This document shows positions 35,499 through 47,022 of a stretch of DNA of 64,000 nt, one piece after another. The translations under genes were made by a program, and so were the position numbers. This stretch comes from Modestobacter sp. VKM Ac-2985. Lineage in GTDB: Bacteria; Actinomycetota; Actinomycetes; Mycobacteriales; Geodermatophilaceae. The notes under the pieces are model-generated. The model saw nothing but the letters and a program-made list of their open reading frames with translations. It was not told the origin of the DNA and did not search any database. The stretch covers positions 1,697,894 through 1,761,893 of the forward strand of contig NZ_JAPVBI010000001.1 in the NCBI RefSeq assembly GCF_026967925.1, in the 5' to 3' direction. The first letter of the stretch is position 1, and every line of letters begins with the position of its first letter.

Positions 35499-36914
35499 AT
35501 GTCTCGTCGCGCGAAGATCGTCTGCACCCTTGGCCCGGCGACCGGTTCCCTGGACCAGATCACCGCCCTCGTCGAGGCGGGGATGGACGTCGCCCGCCTC
35601 AACTTCAGCCACGGGAAGCACGCGGACCACGAGACGGCCTACCGGCACGTGCGGGAGGCCTCCGACAAGGTGGGCCGCGCCGTCGCCATCCTGGCCGACC
35701 TGCAGGGCCCGAAGATCCGGCTCGGCACCTTCGCCGACGGCCCGGTCGTCTGGGCCGCCGGCAGCCGGGTGTGCGTGACCGTCGAGGACGTCCCGGGCAC
35801 CGCCGAGCGGGTCTCCACCACCTACAAGGACCTCGCCAACGACGTGCGGGTCGGTGATCGCCTGCTGATCGACGACGGCAAGCTCGCCCTCACCGTGGTA
35901 GAGGTCGACGGCCCCGACGTGTGGTGCCTGGTGCTCGAGGGCGGCCCCGTCTCCAACAACAAGGGCCTGTCCCTGCCCGGCGTCGCCGTCAGCGTCCCGG
36001 CGCTGTCGGAGAAGGACGCCGAGGATCTGCGCTTCGCGCTCTCCCTGGGCGTCGACTTCATCGCACTGTCGTTCGTGCGGCACGCCAAGGACGTCGAGCT
36101 GGTGCGCGAGATCATGCGCCAGGAGGACGTCGAGGTGCCGGTGATCGCCAAGCTGGAGAAGCCGGAGGCGGTGGAGAACCTCGAGGCGATCGTCGAGGCG
36201 TTCGACGGCGTCATGGTGGCCCGCGGCGACCTGGGCGTGGAGCTGCCGCTGGAGCAGGTCCCGCTGGTGCAGAAGCGTGCGGTCCAGGTGGCCCGGGAGC
36301 GGAACAAGCCGGTCATCGTCGCCACCCAGATGCTCGAGTCCATGATCAGCGCCTCCCGGCCCACCCGGGCCGAGGCCTCCGACGTCGCCAACGCCGTCCT
36401 GGACGGCGCGGACGCGGTCATGCTGTCGGGGGAGACCTCGGTGGGCAAGTACCCCGTCGTCGCGGTCAAGACGATGGAGCGGATCATCGACGCCGTCGAG
36501 TCCGACGCCGTGCGGGTGCCCGAGCTGCTGGTGCCGCCGCGGCAGCGCTCCGGTGCCATCGTGCGGGCCGCCAAGGACATCGGCGAGGCCCTCGACGTCG
36601 CCGCGCTGGCCGCCTTCACGCTGACCGGCAAGACCGCCCAGCTGCTCGCCGCGCTGCACACCCGGCTGCCGATCCTCGCCTTCACCACCGACCCGGCGGT
36701 CCGCAGCCGGCTGGCGCTGTCCTGGGGCGTGGAGACCTTCCTCGTCCCCGAGGTGACCCACACCGACGACATGGTCGGCCAGGTCGACTTCTCGCTGCTG
36801 TCCATCGGCCGGCTCAAGGAGGGCGACAAGGTCGTCATCGTGGCCGGCAGCCCGCCGAACACCGCCGGCTCCACGAACCTGGTGCGGGTGCACGAGGTGG
36901 GGACCGAGGCGTGA
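35499..36914 (+). CDS. pyk: Pyruvate kinase
   Basis: Transfers phosphate from phosphoenolpyruvate to ADP in glycolysis. 471 residues. RRAKIVCTLGPATGS opens the barrel; ARLNFSHGKH, ADLQGPKIRLG, IAKLEKPEAVENL (catalytic Lys, metal Glu), MVARGDLGVELP and the active-site loop IVATQMLESMI are complete. The C-terminal allosteric domain has LTGKTAQLLAALHTRLPILAF-type sequence. No Shine-Dalgarno; leaderless start likely. GTGA overlap with tesB. Confidence 0.97.
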   Translation: MSRRAKIVCTLGPATGSLDQITALVEAGMDVARLNFSHGKHADHETAYRHVREASDKVGRAVAILADLQGPKIRLGTFADGPVVWAAGSRVCVTVEDVPGTAERVSTTYKDLANDVRVGDRLLIDDGKLALTVVEVDGPDVWCLVLEGGPVSNNKGLSLPGVAVSVPALSEKDAEDLRFALSLGVDFIALSFVRHAKDVELVREIMRQEDVEVPVIAKLEKPEAVENLEAIVEAFDGVMVARGDLGVELPLEQVPLVQKRAVQVARERNKPVIVATQMLESMISASRPTRAEASDVANAVLDGADAVMLSGETSVGKYPVVAVKTMERIIDAVESDAVRVPELLVPPRQRSGAIVRAAKDIGEALDVAALAAFTLTGKTAQLLAALHTRLPILAFTTDPAVRSRLALSWGVETFLVPEVTHTDDMVGQVDFSLLSIGRLKEGDKVVIVAGSPPNTAGSTNLVRVHEVGTEA

Positions 36915-39962: not shown

Positions 39963-40583
39963 GTGACCAACGCACCGACCCGGGTCCTCATCGCTGAGGA
40001 CGAGGCCCTCATCCGCCTGGACCTCAAGGAGATGCTGGAGGAGGAGGGCTACGTCGTCGTCGCTGAAGTCGGCGACGGCCAGGCTGCCGTGGAGCAGGCG
40101 CAGCTGCTGCGCCCGGACCTCGTCGTCCTCGACGTCCAGATGCCCGTCCTCGACGGCATCGCCGCGGCCGAGCAGATCGCTGCCGCCCGCATCGCGCCGG
40201 TGATCGTGCTGACGGCCTTCAGCCAGCGGGAGCTCGTCGAGCGCGCCCGGGACGCCGGTGCGATGGCCTACCTGGTCAAGCCGTTCTCCAAGAACGACCT
40301 GGTGCCCGCGATCGAGGTGGCGGTGGGCCGGTTCCAGGAGATGCACGCCCTGGACGCCGAGGTGAGCGACCTCAAGGAGCGGCTGGAGACCCGCAAGGTC
40401 GTCGAGCAGGCCAAGGGCCGGCTCATGTCCGAGCGCGGCATGACCGAGGCCGAGGCCTTCCGCTGGATCCAGCGGACGGCGATGAACGAGCGCACGTCGA
40501 TGAAGGCCCTGGCTCAGGCGATCCTGGCCACCGACGCGCAGCCGACCGGAGACGCCAGCCCGACCGCTCCCGCCGACTCCTGA
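39963..40583 (+). CDS. pdtaR: ANTAR-domain response regulator (PdtaR-like)
   Basis: 206 residues. The receiver domain starts RVLIAEDEALIRLDL, with phospho-acceptor D57 in LVVLDVQMP, the switch Thr in VIVLTAFSQ and the Lys in YLVKPFSK. The ANTAR RNA-binding domain spans roughly 138-195 (ETRKVVEQAKGRLM, then MTEAEAFRWIQRTAMNERT). PdtaR acts by transcription antitermination, binding twin hairpins in target RNAs after phosphorylation by PdtaS. No histidine kinase gene is adjacent. It sits between tRNA-Leu and the branched-chain binding protein. Confidence 0.95.
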   Translation: MTNAPTRVLIAEDEALIRLDLKEMLEEEGYVVVAEVGDGQAAVEQAQLLRPDLVVLDVQMPVLDGIAAAEQIAAARIAPVIVLTAFSQRELVERARDAGAMAYLVKPFSKNDLVPAIEVAVGRFQEMHALDAEVSDLKERLETRKVVEQAKGRLMSERGMTEAEAFRWIQRTAMNERTSMKALAQAILATDAQPTGDASPTAPADS

Positions 40584-40805: not shown

Positions 40806-42134
40806 ATGCGCACAGGCACGTTCGCCCGCGCGACCGCCCTCTCCGGCGCTGCCCTCCTCGCGCTGACCGCCTGTGGCGGCAGCGACGAGGACGGCGGTAC
40901 CGCTGCTGAGGGTGCGAGCGGCGAGAAGCAGGTCAACGTCTACGGCACCGACGGCAACATGGGCAACGCCCTCGGCGAGGACTTCTCGGACGAGGGTGCG
41001 CTGGTCGGGATGAGCGGCACGACGCCGCTGACCGAGCTGGCCGGCGACTTCACCGACCGGCTGCTCGCGGTCGACCCGGACCTGCAGGACTACAACTACG
41101 CCGGGGAGACCTACGACGCCGTCATCCTGACGGCGCTCGCGGCCCAGGCAGCCGGCAGCAGCGACGCCACGGTGTTCGCGCCCTACATCAACGGGCTCAC
41201 CTTCGGTGGCGAGACCTGCGACAGCTACACCTCCTGCCTGGAGATCATCAACGCCGGCGGCAACGTCGACTACGACGGCGTCAGTGGCCCGCTGAGCTTC
41301 GCCGAGCCCGGTGAGCCGGCCCAGGCCAGCTTCGGGATCCTGCAGTTCGGTGAGGACAACGCGCTCGACGACTCGGCGACGGAGTTCGTCATCGCCGGCG
41401 ACGAGGCCAACGCCGCCACCGACGAGGGCCCGGCCTACGCGCCGGCGGGCGCCACGGGTGACCCCCTGGTGATCGGCACCCTGCTGCCGCTGACCGGGAA
41501 CCTGGCCTTCCTCGGCCCGCCCGAGGTCGCCGCGGCTCAGCTCGCGGTCAACGAGGTCAACGAGGCCGGTGGCGCGCTCGGTGCCCCGGTGCAGCTCGTC
41601 GAGGGTGACTCCGGTGACGCCTCGACCGACACCGCGACCCAGACGGTCGACCGGCTGCTGCAGTCCGGCGTCGACGCCATCGTCGGTGCCGCGTCGTCCG
41701 GTGTGAGCCTCACCGTCATCGACACCATCACCGGTGCCGGTGTCCTGCAGATCTCGCCGGCGAACACCTCCGACCAGTTCACCGACTACGACGACTCCGG
41801 GCTGTACTTCCGCACCGCGCCCCCGGACACGCTGCAGGCCCGCGCGCTGGCCGACCTGATCGCCGAGGACGGCAACAACACCGTCGGCATCCTGGCGATC
41901 AACGACCCGTACGGCACTGGTCTGGCCGAGAACACCCGGGACAACCTGGTCGCCGGTGGTCTGTCCGAGGACAGCATCGAGTACCTCACCTACGACCCGC
42001 AGGCGGCGAACTTCGACTCCGAGGTCCAGCGGATGGTGGACTTCAACCCCGACGCCGTCGTGGTCATCGGCTTCGAGGAGTCCTCGCGGATCATCCAGGG
42101 TCTCAACGCCCAGGGCATCGGGCCGCAGCGCTGA
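40806..42134 (+). CDS. Branched-chain amino acid ABC transporter binding lipoprotein, circularly permuted
   Basis: 442 residues. A lipoprotein signal ends at lipobox LTAC with C23. The mature part is a type I periplasmic-binding fold (LivJ/Peripla_BP_6) in permuted order. Residues 43-195 (VNVYGTDGNMGNALGEDF to FGILQFGEDNAL) correspond to the C-terminal third of LivJ; residues 219-442 (DPLVIGTLLPLTGNLAFLGP to SRIIQGLNAQGIGPQ) correspond to its N-terminal two thirds. A 24-residue Ala/Gly/Asp-rich linker joins them. The protein ends where the normal chain would run on into VNVYGTDGN, so nothing seems missing. Likely substrate is a branched-chain amino acid or similar ligand delivered to LivHMGF, encoded convergently downstream. 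Confidence 0.85.
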   Translation: MRTGTFARATALSGAALLALTACGGSDEDGGTAAEGASGEKQVNVYGTDGNMGNALGEDFSDEGALVGMSGTTPLTELAGDFTDRLLAVDPDLQDYNYAGETYDAVILTALAAQAAGSSDATVFAPYINGLTFGGETCDSYTSCLEIINAGGNVDYDGVSGPLSFAEPGEPAQASFGILQFGEDNALDDSATEFVIAGDEANAATDEGPAYAPAGATGDPLVIGTLLPLTGNLAFLGPPEVAAAQLAVNEVNEAGGALGAPVQLVEGDSGDASTDTATQTVDRLLQSGVDAIVGAASSGVSLTVIDTITGAGVLQISPANTSDQFTDYDDSGLYFRTAPPDTLQARALADLIAEDGNNTVGILAINDPYGTGLAENTRDNLVAGGLSEDSIEYLTYDPQAANFDSEVQRMVDFNPDAVVVIGFEESSRIIQGLNAQGIGPQR

Positions 42135-42254: not shown

Positions 42255-42671
42255 TCAGTCGACCAGGAGGAGGGCGAGGACGACGCCGGCGGTCGCCAGG
42301 CCCACCCGTACGGCGTCCACCCGGAGCAACCGGCGGTGGGCGGCGGCGTCCCAGCCGGCGTCCAGGCGGCGGTGCAGCGGCACGGCGCCGAGGGCGGTCA
42401 CCAGGAGGACGAGGGCAGTGACCGTGGCGGCCGCGACGACCAGGCCCCATGGCGTCCCGGCCGGCCGGTCGAGGAGCAGCCAGCCGCTGGTCACCGCCTG
42501 CGCGGCGAAGAGCGGCCCCACCACCCGGGCCACCCGGCGCTGGTGCGCCCGCTCGTAGGCGGGGAACGCACCCGGGGGCACCTGGTCGAACTGGGGGTAG
42601 ACGAGCACCCGCACGGTCCACTGGAAGCCGGCGTACGCGCTGACCGCGATCAGGTGGACGAGGAGGAGCAC
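42255..42671 (-). CDS. Hypothetical four-helix membrane protein
   Basis: 138 residues, nearly all within four hydrophobic segments: LLLVHLIAVSAYAGFQWTV, ARVVGPLFAAQAVTSGWLLL, WGLVVAAATVTALVLLVTAL and VGLATAGVVLALLLVD. Conserved-looking polar positions are the first-helix His6, PQFDQVP and RAHQRR. GTG start. Family not recognised. It follows livF on the same strand but is separated from it by a terminator hairpin. Confidence 0.65.
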   Translation of the reverse strand: MLLLVHLIAVSAYAGFQWTVRVLVYPQFDQVPPGAFPAYERAHQRRVARVVGPLFAAQAVTSGWLLLDRPAGTPWGLVVAAATVTALVLLVTALGAVPLHRRLDAGWDAAAHRRLLRVDAVRVGLATAGVVLALLLVD

Positions 42672-42735: not shown

Positions 42736-43623
42736 TCACTGGGCCTTGGCGAGGGTCCCCAGGTAGAGCTCGATCACCTTCGGGTCGTTCATCAGCGACT
42801 TGCCGGTGTCGGTGTAGGCGTTGCGGCCCTGGTCGAGCACGTAGCCACGGTGACAGATCTGCAGGCACCGCCGGGCGTTCTGCTCGACCATGATGATCGA
42901 GACGCCGGTGGCGTTGATCCGCCGGCAGCGGATGAACACCTCGTCCTGCAGCACCGGGGAGAGACCCGCGGAGGGCTCGTCCAGCAGCAGCACGGAGGGG
43001 TCCATCATCAGCGCGCGGCCCATCGCGACCATCTGCCGTTCGCCGCCGGAGAGGGCGCCGGCCTTGCCCTTCCGCCGGTCACCGAGCAGGGGGAACAGCT
43101 CGGCGACGTAGTCGAAGCGCTCCTTGAAGGACTTCGGACGGAGGTAGACGCCCATCTGCATGTTCTCCTCGATGGTGAGCGAGGGGAACACGTTGTTGTT
43201 CTGCGGGACGTAGCCGACACCCAGGGAGACCAGCCGGTGGGCCGGGGCCGAGGTGATGTCCTCCCCGCGCAGCGTGACCCCGCCGGACCGGACCGGGATC
43301 AGCCCGAACAGCGCCTTGAGCAGCGTGGACTTGCCGGCGCCGTTGGGGCCGATGATCCCCACCAGCTCGCCGTCGGCGAGGTAGAAGTCGCAGCCGTTGA
43401 GGATGTTGACCCCGGGCACGTAGCCCGCGACCAGGTCGTCGGCGCGGACCAGCGCCCCCTCGGCGAGCCGCAGGTGCTCTTCCCGGGTGGCCGCCTTCTC
43501 CGCGGGCGACATGGTCGTCGCGGTGGCGGCCCCGGGCTCCTCGGCGACCGGCCGGTCCTGCTCGGACTCCGGGACCGAGAACCGGCGGTCCTCCGGCGGA
43601 CCTGGTACGTCGGCGGTGCTCAT
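42736..43623 (-). CDS. livF: Branched-chain amino acid ABC transporter ATP-binding protein LivF
   Basis: 295 residues. Walker A IIGPNGAGKSTLL, the Q-loop in VGYVPQNNNVFPSLT (typical of LivF), signature LSGGERQ, Walker B SVLLLDEPSAGLSP and H-loop-region IIMVEQNARR; LivF proteins often have Gln-Asn here. A polar N-terminal extension of about 60 residues precedes the ATPase core. ATGA overlap with livG. Pairs with LivG below the LivHM channel to drive import. Confidence 0.95.
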   Translation of the reverse strand: MSTADVPGPPEDRRFSVPESEQDRPVAEEPGAATATTMSPAEKAATREEHLRLAEGALVRADDLVAGYVPGVNILNGCDFYLADGELVGIIGPNGAGKSTLLKALFGLIPVRSGGVTLRGEDITSAPAHRLVSLGVGYVPQNNNVFPSLTIEENMQMGVYLRPKSFKERFDYVAELFPLLGDRRKGKAGALSGGERQMVAMGRALMMDPSVLLLDEPSAGLSPVLQDEVFIRCRRINATGVSIIMVEQNARRCLQICHRGYVLDQGRNAYTDTGKSLMNDPKVIELYLGTLAKAQ

Positions 43624-44663
43624 CGTCGTGTCCTCCTCTTGCGGCCCCGGTCGGAGCTGATGACGTCCTCGCGCCGGGCACGTTCGGCCGCCTGGTCCTC
43701 GGCGAGGAAGCGGTCCTCCTCCTCCTCGGACAGCGGGGCGTCGTGGTGCGCGCCGAGGTAGGCGTCGACGACGGCCTTGTTCTGGCTGATGGAGTCCGGC
43801 GCGCCCTCGGCGATGACCTTGCCCGCGGCCATGACGACGACCCAGTCGCTGATGTCCCGGACGACGTCCATGTCGTGCTCGACGAAGATGACCGTCATGC
43901 CCTCCTCGCGGAGGTCCTTGACGTGGCCCAGCAGGCTCTGGGTCAGCGCCGGGTTCACCCCGGCCATCGGCTCGTCGAGCATGACCACCTGCGGCTCGCT
44001 CATGAGCGCGCGGGCCATCTCGAGCAGCTTGCGCTGGCCGCCGGACAGGCTGCCGGCGAAGTCGTCCTTCTTGGCGTCGAGCTTGAACCGTCGGAGGAGG
44101 TCCATCGCCCGCTCGGTGTTGGCCTTCTCCTGTGCCTTCCAGGTGCCGGGCACGAGGGCACGGAGAAAGCTCTCCCCGCTCTGTCCCTGGGCACCGAGCA
44201 GCATGTTCTGCAGGACGGTGAGCCGGGACAGCGCCTTGGTCAGCTGGAAGGTGCGGACGACGCCGAGCCGGGCGACCTGGTGCGGGCTCAGCTTGCCCAG
44301 GTCGCGGCCGTTGAACGACCAGGTGCCGGTGTTGGGCTGGTCGAACCCGGTGAGCAGGTTGAACAGCGTCGTCTTGCCGGCACCGTTGGGGCCGATCAGC
44401 CCGGTGATACCGCCACGTTGGATCTCCAGGTGGTCGACCGACACCGCGGTCAGGCCACCGAACGTGCGGGTGACGTGGTCGACGACGATCGCCGGGTCGG
44501 GCTTGGCGACGCCGACCTCCCAGGGGACGTCCCGGAGGGCTGCCTGGGCCACCCGCTGGGGTGCCGCTCGCGTGGCCCCGGCCGGGGCAGCAGCGCCGGC
44601 CGGGACCGTTGCCTCGTCGGACCGTGCGGCGTGCGCGCCGTGGGGAGCGGGGTCAGCGGGCAT
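43620..44663 (-). CDS. livG: Branched-chain amino acid ABC transporter ATP-binding protein LivG
   Basis: 347 residues, longer than the usual roughly 255. The core has Walker A LIGPNGAGKTTLFNLL, VVRTFQLTKALSRLTVLQN (Q-loop), LSGGQRKLLEMARAL, VVMLDEPMAGVNP and the H-loop VIFVEHDMDVV. An Ala/Pro-rich N-terminal extension of about 55 residues and a charged tail (SEEEEDRFLAEDQAAERARR, then a basic end) flank it. Overlaps livM by 11 bp and livF by 4 bp. Confidence 0.95.
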   Translation of the reverse strand: MPADPAPHGAHAARSDEATVPAGAAAPAGATRAAPQRVAQAALRDVPWEVGVAKPDPAIVVDHVTRTFGGLTAVSVDHLEIQRGGITGLIGPNGAGKTTLFNLLTGFDQPNTGTWSFNGRDLGKLSPHQVARLGVVRTFQLTKALSRLTVLQNMLLGAQGQSGESFLRALVPGTWKAQEKANTERAMDLLRRFKLDAKKDDFAGSLSGGQRKLLEMARALMSEPQVVMLDEPMAGVNPALTQSLLGHVKDLREEGMTVIFVEHDMDVVRDISDWVVVMAAGKVIAEGAPDSISQNKAVVDAYLGAHHDAPLSEEEEDRFLAEDQAAERARREDVISSDRGRKRRTRR

Positions 44664-45651
44664 CGAGCATCACCTCTCGTCGGTCACCGAAGATGCCCTG
44701 GGGCCGGAACACCAACAACAGCATGAGCCCGATCCCGACCAGCACGTAGCGCAGCTGCGCCACGTCGGTCGAGGAGAGCAGCTCCGAGGGGATGACCCCG
44801 TTGGCGATCAGGGAGCGCAACCCCGTGTCGGCGAACTGCAGGATGAACAGCAGCAGCATGGACCCGATGACGGGGCCCAGCACCCGGGCCGCACCACCGA
44901 GGATCAGCGCCGCGTACGCCAGGAAGGTGTTGGCGTTCTGGTACTGGTCGGGGATCGCGGAACCGGTGCCGACGGCGTACACCATGCCGCCGAAGGCGCC
45001 GAAGATCCCGCCGAGGACCAGGGCCTGCATCTTGTAGGCGTAGACGTTCTTGCCCAGCGAGCGGACGGCGTCCTCGTCCTCCCGGATGGCCTTCACCACG
45101 CGGCCCCACGGAGAGCGCATGAGCGCCCAGACCAGCAGCGAGCACAGCGCCACCAGGATCCACCCGATCGTGCAGACCCAGAGCTCGGTGCCGCTCCAGG
45201 TGGTGCCCAGCAGGTCGTACCGGCGCCCGGTGTCCCAGGGGGCCAGTGCGATGAAGTCCCGGTTGAACGCCGAGAGGCCCCGGGTGCCGCCGGTGACCGG
45301 GGTGGCGGAGACCGATCGGAAGACCAGTCTCAGCCCCTCGGCCGTGGCGATCGTGACGATCGCGAGGTAGTCGGCACGCAGGCGCAGCGTGGGCAGGCCC
45401 AGCAGCAGGGCGAGCACGACGGCGGCGAGCACCCCGACGATGACGCCGACCCAGAACGGCAGCCCCCACTGGCTCACCGAGATGGCGATGCCGAACCCGC
45501 CGAGCATGGCGAAGGCGATCTGGCCGAAGTTGAGCAGGCCCGTGTACCCGAAGTGCACGTTGATGCCGATGGCGAGCAGGGCGAAGAAGATCGCCTGGAA
45601 CCCGAAGAACGCCTTGCCCGCGATCGCGAACGCGTTGAGGAGGTCGGCCAT
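44653..45651 (-). CDS. livM: Branched-chain amino acid ABC transporter permease LivM
   Basis: 332 residues with about eight to ten hydrophobic segments. INVHFGYTGLLNFGQIAFAMLG is the LivM signature region, and WGRVVKAIREDEDAVRSLGK is the coupling helix that docks on the ATPases. Starts three bases after the livH stop. Forms the channel with LivH. Confidence 0.95.
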   Translation of the reverse strand: MADLLNAFAIAGKAFFGFQAIFFALLAIGINVHFGYTGLLNFGQIAFAMLGGFGIAISVSQWGLPFWVGVIVGVLAAVVLALLLGLPTLRLRADYLAIVTIATAEGLRLVFRSVSATPVTGGTRGLSAFNRDFIALAPWDTGRRYDLLGTTWSGTELWVCTIGWILVALCSLLVWALMRSPWGRVVKAIREDEDAVRSLGKNVYAYKMQALVLGGIFGAFGGMVYAVGTGSAIPDQYQNANTFLAYAALILGGAARVLGPVIGSMLLLFILQFADTGLRSLIANGVIPSELLSSTDVAQLRYVLVGIGLMLLLVFRPQGIFGDRREVMLDAR

Positions 45652-45654
45652 CGG

Positions 45655-47022
45655 TCAGCCGATCCTGGCTCGGCTGCCCAGGATGCCCTGGGGACGGACG
45701 ACGAGGATGACGATCAAGAGGAGCAGCCCTCCGACGTACTTCATGTCATTCGGGATGACGAGGGTGGACATCTGCACGAAGACGCCGACGATGAGGCTGC
45801 CGAGCAGGGCGCCGTAGGCGGTCCCGAGCCCACCGAGGGTGACCCCGGCGAACATCAGCAGCAGCAGCCGGAAGCCCATGTCCCACTGGACCTGGTCGGA
45901 GAGGCCGAGGAGCACGCCGCCGAGTGCGGCGAGCGCGCCGCCGAGCACCCACACGAAGAGGACCACGCGGTTGACGTCGATCCCGGAGGACGCGGCCAGG
46001 TCCCGGTTGTCCGAGACCGCCCGCATCGCCTTGCCGATCTTGGTGCGCTGCAGCATCAGCGCGACCAGCACCAGCACGACGACCGCGATGACGATCGAGG
46101 CGATGTCCCGGTCCTGCAGGGTGAACACGCCGTAGTCCCTGGCCCGCTGGCCCTGGTAGTCGGCGTAGGGGTTGGAGAACCCGCCGTAGAAGATCTGGTA
46201 GCCGTAGCGCAGCGCCAGGGAGAGGCCGATCGAGACCACCAGCGCCGCGATGAGCCCGGTGCCGCGTCGCCGGAGCGGCCGCCAGATGACCAGCTCGTTG
46301 AGGGCACCGACGACCCCGCCGACCACCATCGCCAACAGGGCCGCCGGGATGAGCGGCACCCCGCCCTGGACGTTGATGTACCAGGCGGCGATCGCGCCGA
46401 TGGTGACCAGCTCGCCGTGGGCGAAGTTGGTCAGCCCGGTGGTGCCGTAGATCAGGGACAGGCCGACCGCGGCCATGGCGATCAGCAGCCCGAACCGCAG
46501 GCCGTCGACGAACAGCTGGACGGCCCGGATGGTGCCGCCCCCGTCGTTGCGGCTGCCGTCGTTCAAGCCGATGTTCACCGGCTGCGCCCGTCCGCTGTCG
46601 ACGGTCACCGTGCGGCTGGGCTCGCCGTTGACCTCGACCCCCTCGGGCAGGTCGTCGGGGTCGACGCTCACGACGTACTGGCCGGGACCCGGCAGGTCGA
46701 CCTCCCAGCGGCCGTCCTCCCCGGTCTGGACGGTGTCCACGGTCTCGCCGTCGGGGGTGGCCACCTCGACGGTGACCCCTTCGATCGGGCCGCTCAGGCT
46801 GGTCTGCAAGGTGCCGCGCACCTGCTCGCCTGCCTCCGCTGCGGCGGCGACGCCGGGCACCAGGGTGGCGAAGGCCATCCCGAGGGCGGCGAGGAGCAGG
46901 ACCAGCACCAGTGGACGGTGGGCGCTGCGCCACCGGCGTGGGGTGCGCCGGTGTCCGGGAGGATCCTCCCGGGTGGAGCTGCGTTCCCCGCACCTCGCGG
47001 CACGGTGGGGCGCGTGCGTCAC
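45655..47022 (-). CDS. livH: LivH permease fused to an N-terminal extracytoplasmic domain
   Basis: 455 residues, about 160 more than typical LivH. A basic N-terminus and signal-like hydrophobic stretch (PLVLVLLLAALGMAFATLVPG) lead into a module at about residues 68-150 with carboxypeptidase-regulatory/Ig-like pattern: VRGTLQTSLSGPIEGVTVEV, DGRWEVDLPGPGQYVVSVD. The permease follows from about 165, with LIYGTTGLTNFAHGELVTIG and coupling helix TKIGKAMRAVSDNRDLAASS. GTG start with GGAGG 5 nt upstream supports the long form. First gene of livHMGF. Confidence 0.92.
   Translation of the reverse strand: MTHAPHRAARCGERSSTREDPPGHRRTPRRWRSAHRPLVLVLLLAALGMAFATLVPGVAAAAEAGEQVRGTLQTSLSGPIEGVTVEVATPDGETVDTVQTGEDGRWEVDLPGPGQYVVSVDPDDLPEGVEVNGEPSRTVTVDSGRAQPVNIGLNDGSRNDGGGTIRAVQLFVDGLRFGLLIAMAAVGLSLIYGTTGLTNFAHGELVTIGAIAAWYINVQGGVPLIPAALLAMVVGGVVGALNELVIWRPLRRRGTGLIAALVVSIGLSLALRYGYQIFYGGFSNPYADYQGQRARDYGVFTLQDRDIASIVIAVVVLVLVALMLQRTKIGKAMRAVSDNRDLAASSGIDVNRVVLFVWVLGGALAALGGVLLGLSDQVQWDMGFRLLLLMFAGVTLGGLGTAYGALLGSLIVGVFVQMSTLVIPNDMKYVGGLLLLIVILVVRPQGILGSRARIG

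Follow-up and report, generated by a model that had tools for sequence, protein, structure and literature searches.

A circularly permuted LivJ-type binding lipoprotein at a Liv transporter locus of Modestobacter, and recurrence of its swapped order in Actinomycetota

Natural circular permutations are known mostly from pairs of proteins with deep and unclear histories. Among type I solute-binding proteins (SBPs), one case has been described in Treponema: Tp0684 (TpMglB-2) is a glucose-binding lipoprotein with a circularly permuted fold, designated 'type Ic / cluster Bc', with relatives in other treponemes and in Gram-positives (PMC4990184). In the portion of that report available to us, Brautigam et al. 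suggest that the topology may be an adaptation to anchoring, note no obvious advantage, and do not mention repeated origins (PMC4990184). Tp0684 and the protein analyzed here are both natural circularly permuted type I binding lipoproteins. However, Tp0684 belongs to a sugar family, and its cut differs from the one described below: roughly 100 residues from the start of MglB stand at its end (PMC4990184); the two proteins are alike in working but are not of the same family. Permutation by duplication has also been described in other folds, namely in saposin and swaposin and in DNA methyltransferases (PMC3320104). In contrast to those cases, the normal and permuted SBPs considered here are orthologues at one syntenic locus. 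In the open-licence PMC literature, no report of a permuted branched-chain amino acid SBP, or of repeated SBP permutation, was among the matches listed, and Tp0684 with its relatives was the only natural type I SBP permutation found in print. We regard the permuted LivJ-type SBP as a new variant whose main interest lies in its recurrence.

The protein is encoded in the window, a stretch of 64,000 nucleotides from Modestobacter sp. VKM Ac-2985. Its counterparts in normal order are the LivJ/LivK, or HAAT, type I SBPs (PF13458; PDB entries 4gnr, 1z15, and 3ipc), with which it has in common a lipobox and an adjacent LivFGMH-type transporter. Both halves of such a protein are present, and half A matches the first ~220 residues of the known proteins. 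The normal N-to-C order, however, is absent: the last ~150 residues (half B) precede the first ~220, so that the chain reads B-A instead of A-B. The features of the gene are as follows.

40806..42134, + strand: permuted LivJ/HAAT-type solute-binding lipoprotein, 442 aa, signal-B-linker-A (ORF, Pfam, blastp of halves)
40806..40874, + strand: signal peptide and lipobox LTAC with Cys23, residues 1-23 (read directly)
40875..40928, + strand: N-terminal spacer, residues 24-41 (read directly)
40929..41390, + strand: half B, C-terminal in the normal order, residues 42-195 (blastp/HMM of halves)
40929..40994, + strand: ~22-residue segment QVNVYGTDGNMGNALGEDFSDE at the N-end of half B, site I (HMM classes and pattern)
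41391..41459, + strand: linker, residues 196-218 (read directly, spacer lengths, dN/dS)
41460..42131, + strand: half A, N-terminal in the normal order, residues 219-442, ending at the cut GIGPQR (Pfam, blastp, PDB profile)

An earlier note on this DNA, made from the letters alone, had read the gene as a circularly permuted LivJ-type lipoprotein with an open frame and a lipobox before the new N-terminus. That reading, including its coordinates and the swap of the halves, is borne out by Pfam, PDB profiles, and blastp of the halves, and by the same B-A order in many independent assemblies. The ORF is a single uninterrupted frame of 442 residues with the signal of a bacterial lipoprotein (LTAC at residues 20 to 23), and lipidation is predicted. 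The Pfam match to PF13458 (Peripla_BP_6) is limited to residues 221 to 440, which correspond to profile positions 2 to 217 of 343; the second half of that profile was left unmatched by the window SBP, and the score of 121.9 bits (family cut-off, 31.7) comes from the first part only. The NCBIfam LivJ-type model PRK15404 matched residues 218 to 387 with 66.5 bits, far below its cut-off of 477. A PDB search with a profile of 47 permuted relatives aligned residues 220 to 439 with residues 6 to 221 of 4gnr and ended at the cut, whereas a profile of 25 normal-order relatives crossed the seam (e.g., 4gnr 4-307 and 1z15 4-306). Order-blind annotation with Pfam or NCBIfam returns such permuted proteins as a partial domain.

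As a blastp query, residues 42 to 196 were homologous to the C-terminal part of normal-order relatives. In one of these (L033), blastp placed half A at 92 to 313 and half B at 313 to 459, without a gap. (Here and below, L numbers denote loci, G numbers genomes, and f-codes genome families; f1 is the family of the window genome.) Identity of the window halves to normal-order orthologues reached 66% for A and 52% for B. Normal-order orthologues at the conserved locus (e.g., L184, L192, L208, and L259, with L100 to L102 of Arthrobacter and L104 to L110 of Microbacterium as named relatives) have the same halves, the same pair of cysteines, and, where checked, the same neighbors, and differ from the window SBP in their A-B order. 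In half B of the window SBP the pair is Cys138 and Cys144, which is invariant in A1. Searched by itself, half B had no significant match in Pfam or in the PDB, where the best E was 0.88. The fold assigned to it therefore rests on homology to the normal-order proteins. No tandem repeats were found within the window SBP gene. Halves B and A add up to one domain's worth of sequence, with no part doubled.

The genes around the SBP that are relevant to its function, or that mark the locus, are listed below.

35499..36914, + strand: pyruvate kinase, conserved locus marker (presumed identity, from its sequence; synteny)
39963..40583, + strand: response regulator with ANTAR domain, upstream neighbor (PF00072 and PF03861; synteny)
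42255..42671, - strand: small ORF between the SBP gene and livF (sub-threshold Anthrone_oxy match only)
42736..43623, - strand: LivF-type ATPase, convergent neighbor (family search; synteny)
43620..44663, - strand: LivG-type ATPase (family search)
44653..45651, - strand: LivM-type permease (family search)
45655..47022, - strand: LivH-type permease with N-terminal CarboxypepD_reg domain (PF02653 at 172-439, PF13620 at 67-153)

The usual neighborhood consists of what we take to be pyruvate kinase and, in some loci, a presumed thioesterase, followed by the ANTAR regulator, the SBP gene, and, in the opposite orientation, livF-livG-livM-livH. Two or more convergent liv genes lay within 6 kb of 71 of 76 A-B genes, 55 of 56 B-A genes of f1, all 5 of clade 2 and all 12 of clade 3 (clades defined below), 11 of 17 site II B-A genes, and none of the 12 B-A genes of f16; these counts cover SBP genes with at least 5 kb of downstream sequence, some of them counted in two loci. 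The site II exceptions are L290 (two copies), L291, and L292, without liv genes in the stretch examined; L265, whose liv genes lie on the other side of the SBP gene; and L264, which has only a LivH match at the upstream edge and a weak (30%) LivF-like match. Because both orders occupy one conserved liv locus, the permuted and normal forms are mostly orthologues in place. The exception is the permuted gene of f16, which is an orphan. In the window genome no other member of this SBP family was found; two other matches were 30% identical and covered half A only.

Several observations concern the neighbors themselves. The ANTAR response regulator adjoins the SBP gene in loci of both orders; the product of 39963 to 40583 is presumably of the PdtaR type, which would suggest RNA-level control nearby. 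The small ORF at 42255 to 42671 (- strand) is 63 to 72% identical in the f1 loci where it was found. LivH carries an N-terminal extension of ~150 residues, with PF13620 at 67 to 153 just above the cut-off (33.9 versus 32.3 bits). Similar extensions precede LivH in loci of either order: blastp detected one in 72 of 87 LivH ORFs from B-A loci and in 38 of 75 from A-B loci, and among the eight non-hits listed, a like stretch could be seen by eye in seven and not in L213. The binding protein might dock on this extension. In genome G025 a second, diverged permuted copy (L041:6990-8558, - strand) has no liv genes in the stretch examined.

We consider it very probable that the permuted protein serves the adjacent Liv-type importer as its lipid-anchored substrate-binding protein, in an order that has recurred. 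It is most likely the lipid-tethered amino acid receptor of the LivFGMH importer that faces it. The two halves would fold into an ordinary two-lobed 'Venus flytrap', with the linker joining the old termini, and the protein would bind a branched-chain or related amino acid and hand it to LivHM. In the normal order the N-terminus begins the N-lobe; the swap would place it in a loop of the C-lobe. The lipid anchor would thereby move with it, and the protein would be leashed by the other lobe than in LivJ/LivK proteins, with the lobes assigned as in LivJ.

It is also conceivable that the permuted protein has left transport and serves as a sensor or a decoy. The ANTAR response regulator next to the window gene would suit such a function, and the permuted gene of f16 never lies beside liv genes, whereas the four A-B copies of f16 examined (L214 to L217) do; it is possible, therefore, that the permuted protein has another job in f16. 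However, the liv locus of f1 and of clades 2 and 3 has the permuted protein as its binding protein, and no second family member was found in the window genome. We rate loss of the transport function as improbable. The receptor function remains our preferred reading of the window SBP.

Permuted orthologues occur in nine families, f1 included. Genomes were searched one by one within Actinomycetota, the phylum of the window, and other phyla were covered by one pattern scan. Collinear permuted matches were found in 56 of 81 genomes of f16 (any match in 63), 13 of 197 of f41 (any match in 124), 35 of 101 of f81 (any match in 63), and 2 of 35 of f68 (any match in 25). Two genomes of f49 and four of f39 were permuted in a scan of 394 at class level, one of f13 in a scan of 397 at the level of the taxonomic order, and one of f122 in a scan of 396 at phylum level. 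Permuted genomes known by search only, as are many in f16, f81, and the wider draw of f1 given below, were called permuted when a single collinear match spanned most of the query. A tenth family, f11, is likely permuted because L042, cut by the start of its contig, shows the end of half A and then the end of the frame at the cut GIGPKR of site I.

With HMMs of the halves, 308 ORFs were matched: 206 B-A, 93 A-B, 8 A only, and 1 B only. This is a count of ORFs in loci, and some genes sit in more than one locus. Of the 8 A-only ORFs, two are pieces at contig ends (L042 and L103); the other six are full-length, match only weakly (45 to 94 bits), and look like other SBPs. The B-A ORFs fall into two classes. 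At site I (186 ORFs), the chain ends 0 to 8 residues past half A, and half B is matched from profile position 1 to 4. At site II (20 ORFs, from f68, f81, and f122), the chain continues for 21 to 23 residues past half A, and half B is matched from position 14 to 24. The two sites differ by one segment of ~21 residues, which in the window SBP is QVNVYGTDGNMGNALGEDF and whose Asp we take to be a ligand contact in solved relatives. A sequence pattern placed this segment N-terminally in 185 of the 186 site I ORFs and C-terminally in 19 of the 20 site II ORFs; the two exceptions, one per class, agreed with their class when read by eye and have one copy each. None of the 206 B-A ORFs had both copies by pattern or, for those two, by eye.

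The cut falls after about residue 217 to 221 of LivJ-type chains. From the lipobox Cys to the start of B, the median in B-A clade 1 is 20 residues. Site I clades 1, 2, and 3 have a median spacer of 32, 30.5, and 25 residues, respectively, between the halves, whereas A-B proteins have a median of 28.5 residues from Cys to A and a 6-residue tail after B. These lengths fit a linker made of the old tail and most of the old N-terminal spacer. Two site II copies are adjacent at L290 (5935-7305 and 7309-9540, - strand); their N-terminal spacers are very short, and the stretch examined contains no liv genes.

For the trees both halves were set in one order, and de-duplicated subsets of 105, 115, 118, 117, and 84 rows were used. 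The FastTree set, another alignment, and the spacer medians each omit one row in which the match to a half was short; L112, which has a very long branch, was left out of the site II constraint tests, and L112 and L034 were left out of the 84-row tree. FastTree (105 rows) gave three site I groups: clade 1 (f1, f16, and f13), clade 2 (f39 and f49), and clade 3 (f41). Quick IQ-TREE runs (115 and 118 rows) and a careful one (84 rows) each required three changes of order for site I, with a bootstrap 5 to 95% range of 3 to 3 in the careful tree. All B-A genes together required 3, 5, and 5 changes in the 115-, 118-, and 84-row trees, and site II adds one or two. Forcing all B-A genes into one clade cost 245 lnL units (AU p, 2.9e-5), or 225 with site II included (AU p, 3.9e-5). 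Holding clades 2 and 3 together cost 113 (p, 6.8e-6), and clades 1 and 2 together cost 87 (p, 0.003); both groupings were chosen with the first tree already in view.

The trees support the conclusion that the B-A order arose at least three times, and four or five origins are possible. The count above three is unsure because neither site II as one clade (p, 0.85, quick tree) nor clade 1 with site II (p, 0.56) was rejected; the careful tree (84 rows) splits site II, with 2 to 2 changes over the bootstraps. Clade 3 lies among A-B genes of its own family, f41, at the same locus. In separate trees of the halves, both halves of the permuted f41 gene L170 group with the A-B genes of f41, and they are 73% and 66% identical to the A-B gene L207, in comparison with 56% and 52% to the best B-A row. 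Conversion of one half would therefore be insufficient to explain the placement of L170.

Alternatively, the order may have changed only once, long ago, so that every B-A gene descends from that event and the mixed tree is a product of horizontal transfer, gene conversion, or long branches. The site I cut medians of the three clades are within two residues of each other, as a common origin would suggest, and clade 1 with site II was not rejected. The f16 genes sit on a long branch (0.56 in the 115-row tree and 0.52 in the 84-row tree). Further, the trees of single halves resolve clades 1 and 2 less well: in the tree of half A, L132 falls apart from L133 and the other clade 2 genes, and f1 does not group with f16 (supports of 0.67 to 0.92). 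However, one clade of all B-A genes was rejected in two data sets, and clade 3 sits among A-B genes of its own family and locus with each half taken separately. Transfer can account for common sequence, but not for B-A genes that are closest to local A-B genes, as L170 is to L207. We give a single origin a slim chance only.

Under the preferred reading of repeated origins, the opening of the chain at one loop in all three cases suggests that the choice of sites is constrained. The chances seem to us about even that one orthologous SBP gene, staying in place next to its transporter, has been permuted at least four times in Actinomycetota, always by opening either end of the ~21-residue segment of the C-lobe. 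If so, this would be a case of convergent protein topology, driven either by a benefit of the C-lobe leash or by the small number of openings that are tolerated. Orthologues of both orders share one locus inside a single family and even inside a single genus. With plausible tandem intermediates, two neighboring cut sites, and at least three origins, this makes the gene an unusually good natural test of protein topology change. Experiments could ask whether permutation is neutral or selected, how the anchor point affects an ABC importer, and which openings the Venus flytrap fold allows.

Permutation by duplication predicts tandem copies (PMC3320104). Tandem A-B A-B genes were found at the locus in L198 and L261 (both f31) and in L244 (f41); L244 belongs to genus g183, as do three permuted f41 genomes. 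L290 is a tandem permuted pair, B-A B-A. The tandem normal-order copies could represent the duplication intermediate. The swap probably began with a duplication in place, giving two successive signal-A-B genes as in L198, L244, and L261, and probably continued with an in-frame fusion of the duplicates and loss of the first A and the last B. No fused A-B-A-B or overlapping intermediate was found in the loci examined. Comparison by tblastn of each locus of at least 6 kb with itself recognized no remnant of A or B outside the main ORFs, where the filter excluded stretches overlapping the frame of the main ORF; the matches there were weak, and the best, E 9e-9, was to a second, distant SBP in L257. 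The HMM search revealed a shortened tandem copy, with its own lipobox, directly 5' of the normal-order SBP gene of L223 (4926-5696, + strand). This copy, the lone B-only ORF, is missing the C-lobe part of half A; it may be a binding protein with a single lobe or a duplicate in decay.

Fission and fusion, in which A and B were once separate polypeptides that were rejoined in the other order, is a known route to permutation (PMC3320104). In its favor, the draft contig C231 of G1438 has A and B matches in two different frames, which may reflect either a frameshift or a split gene. However, among the 308 ORFs the 8 with A only are contig-cut or resemble other SBPs, the 1 with B only is the short tandem copy, and tandem whole copies exist instead. 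We rate this route as very improbable and prefer duplication in place.

The order is well conserved within f1. A single collinear match over the whole or nearly the whole permuted query was present in 33 of 59 related genomes, which comprise 32 of the 34 other f1 genomes and one f16 genome; the two f1 genomes without a permuted match are only 79 to 80% complete. In a wider draw from the taxonomic order, 66 of 74 other f1 genomes had a collinear permuted relative, and the remaining 8, which are 97 to 100% complete, had no match at E 1e-28. The gene can therefore be absent and is dispensable in those eight. Residues 1 to 42 of the window SBP matched at 41 to 100% in permuted f1 relatives where blastp detected them, and blastp found no match to them in L039 and L040 or in L037 of f16. 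In comparison with seven relatives, dN/dS was 0.18 to 0.35 for the gene, 0.14 to 0.47 for B, 0.13 to 0.32 for A, and 0 to 0.36 for the linker, which demonstrates purifying selection on both halves and on the linker. The search of relatives that the earlier note had proposed thus found the B-A order widely. The alternative that assembly or scaffolding put two parts of the gene in the wrong order has nothing in its favor beyond the unusual arrangement and is vanishingly improbable, being refuted by the independent assemblies with the same order in f1 and in f16, some of them single-contig genomes (e.g., G007, G020, and G024), and by the dN/dS values well below 1.

Another point in the earlier note fared differently. 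It had taken the bases GCAG, common to both new ends, as a trace of short-homology recombination. Of 75 f1 genes, 30 carry GCAG at the two ends. The longest word common to both ends averaged 3.87 nucleotides, no longer than the 4.06 in random windows of the same genes; the short homology is no better than chance, and we do not count it as evidence. The permuted order stands, but it is not private to one genome; it is a widespread and recurrent trait of this gene in the phylum.

A pattern scan of named records turned up both orders. Its 68 loci held 54 B-A ORFs, 11 A-B ORFs, and 4 with A only. The A-B ORFs were from three Arthrobacter, seven Microbacterium, and one distant Bosea protein. The B-A ORFs came from Modestobacter, Blastococcus, Geodermatophilus, Klenkia, and an unclassified Geodermatophilaceae bacterium, and one B-A record is titled as an unverified Bacillus.
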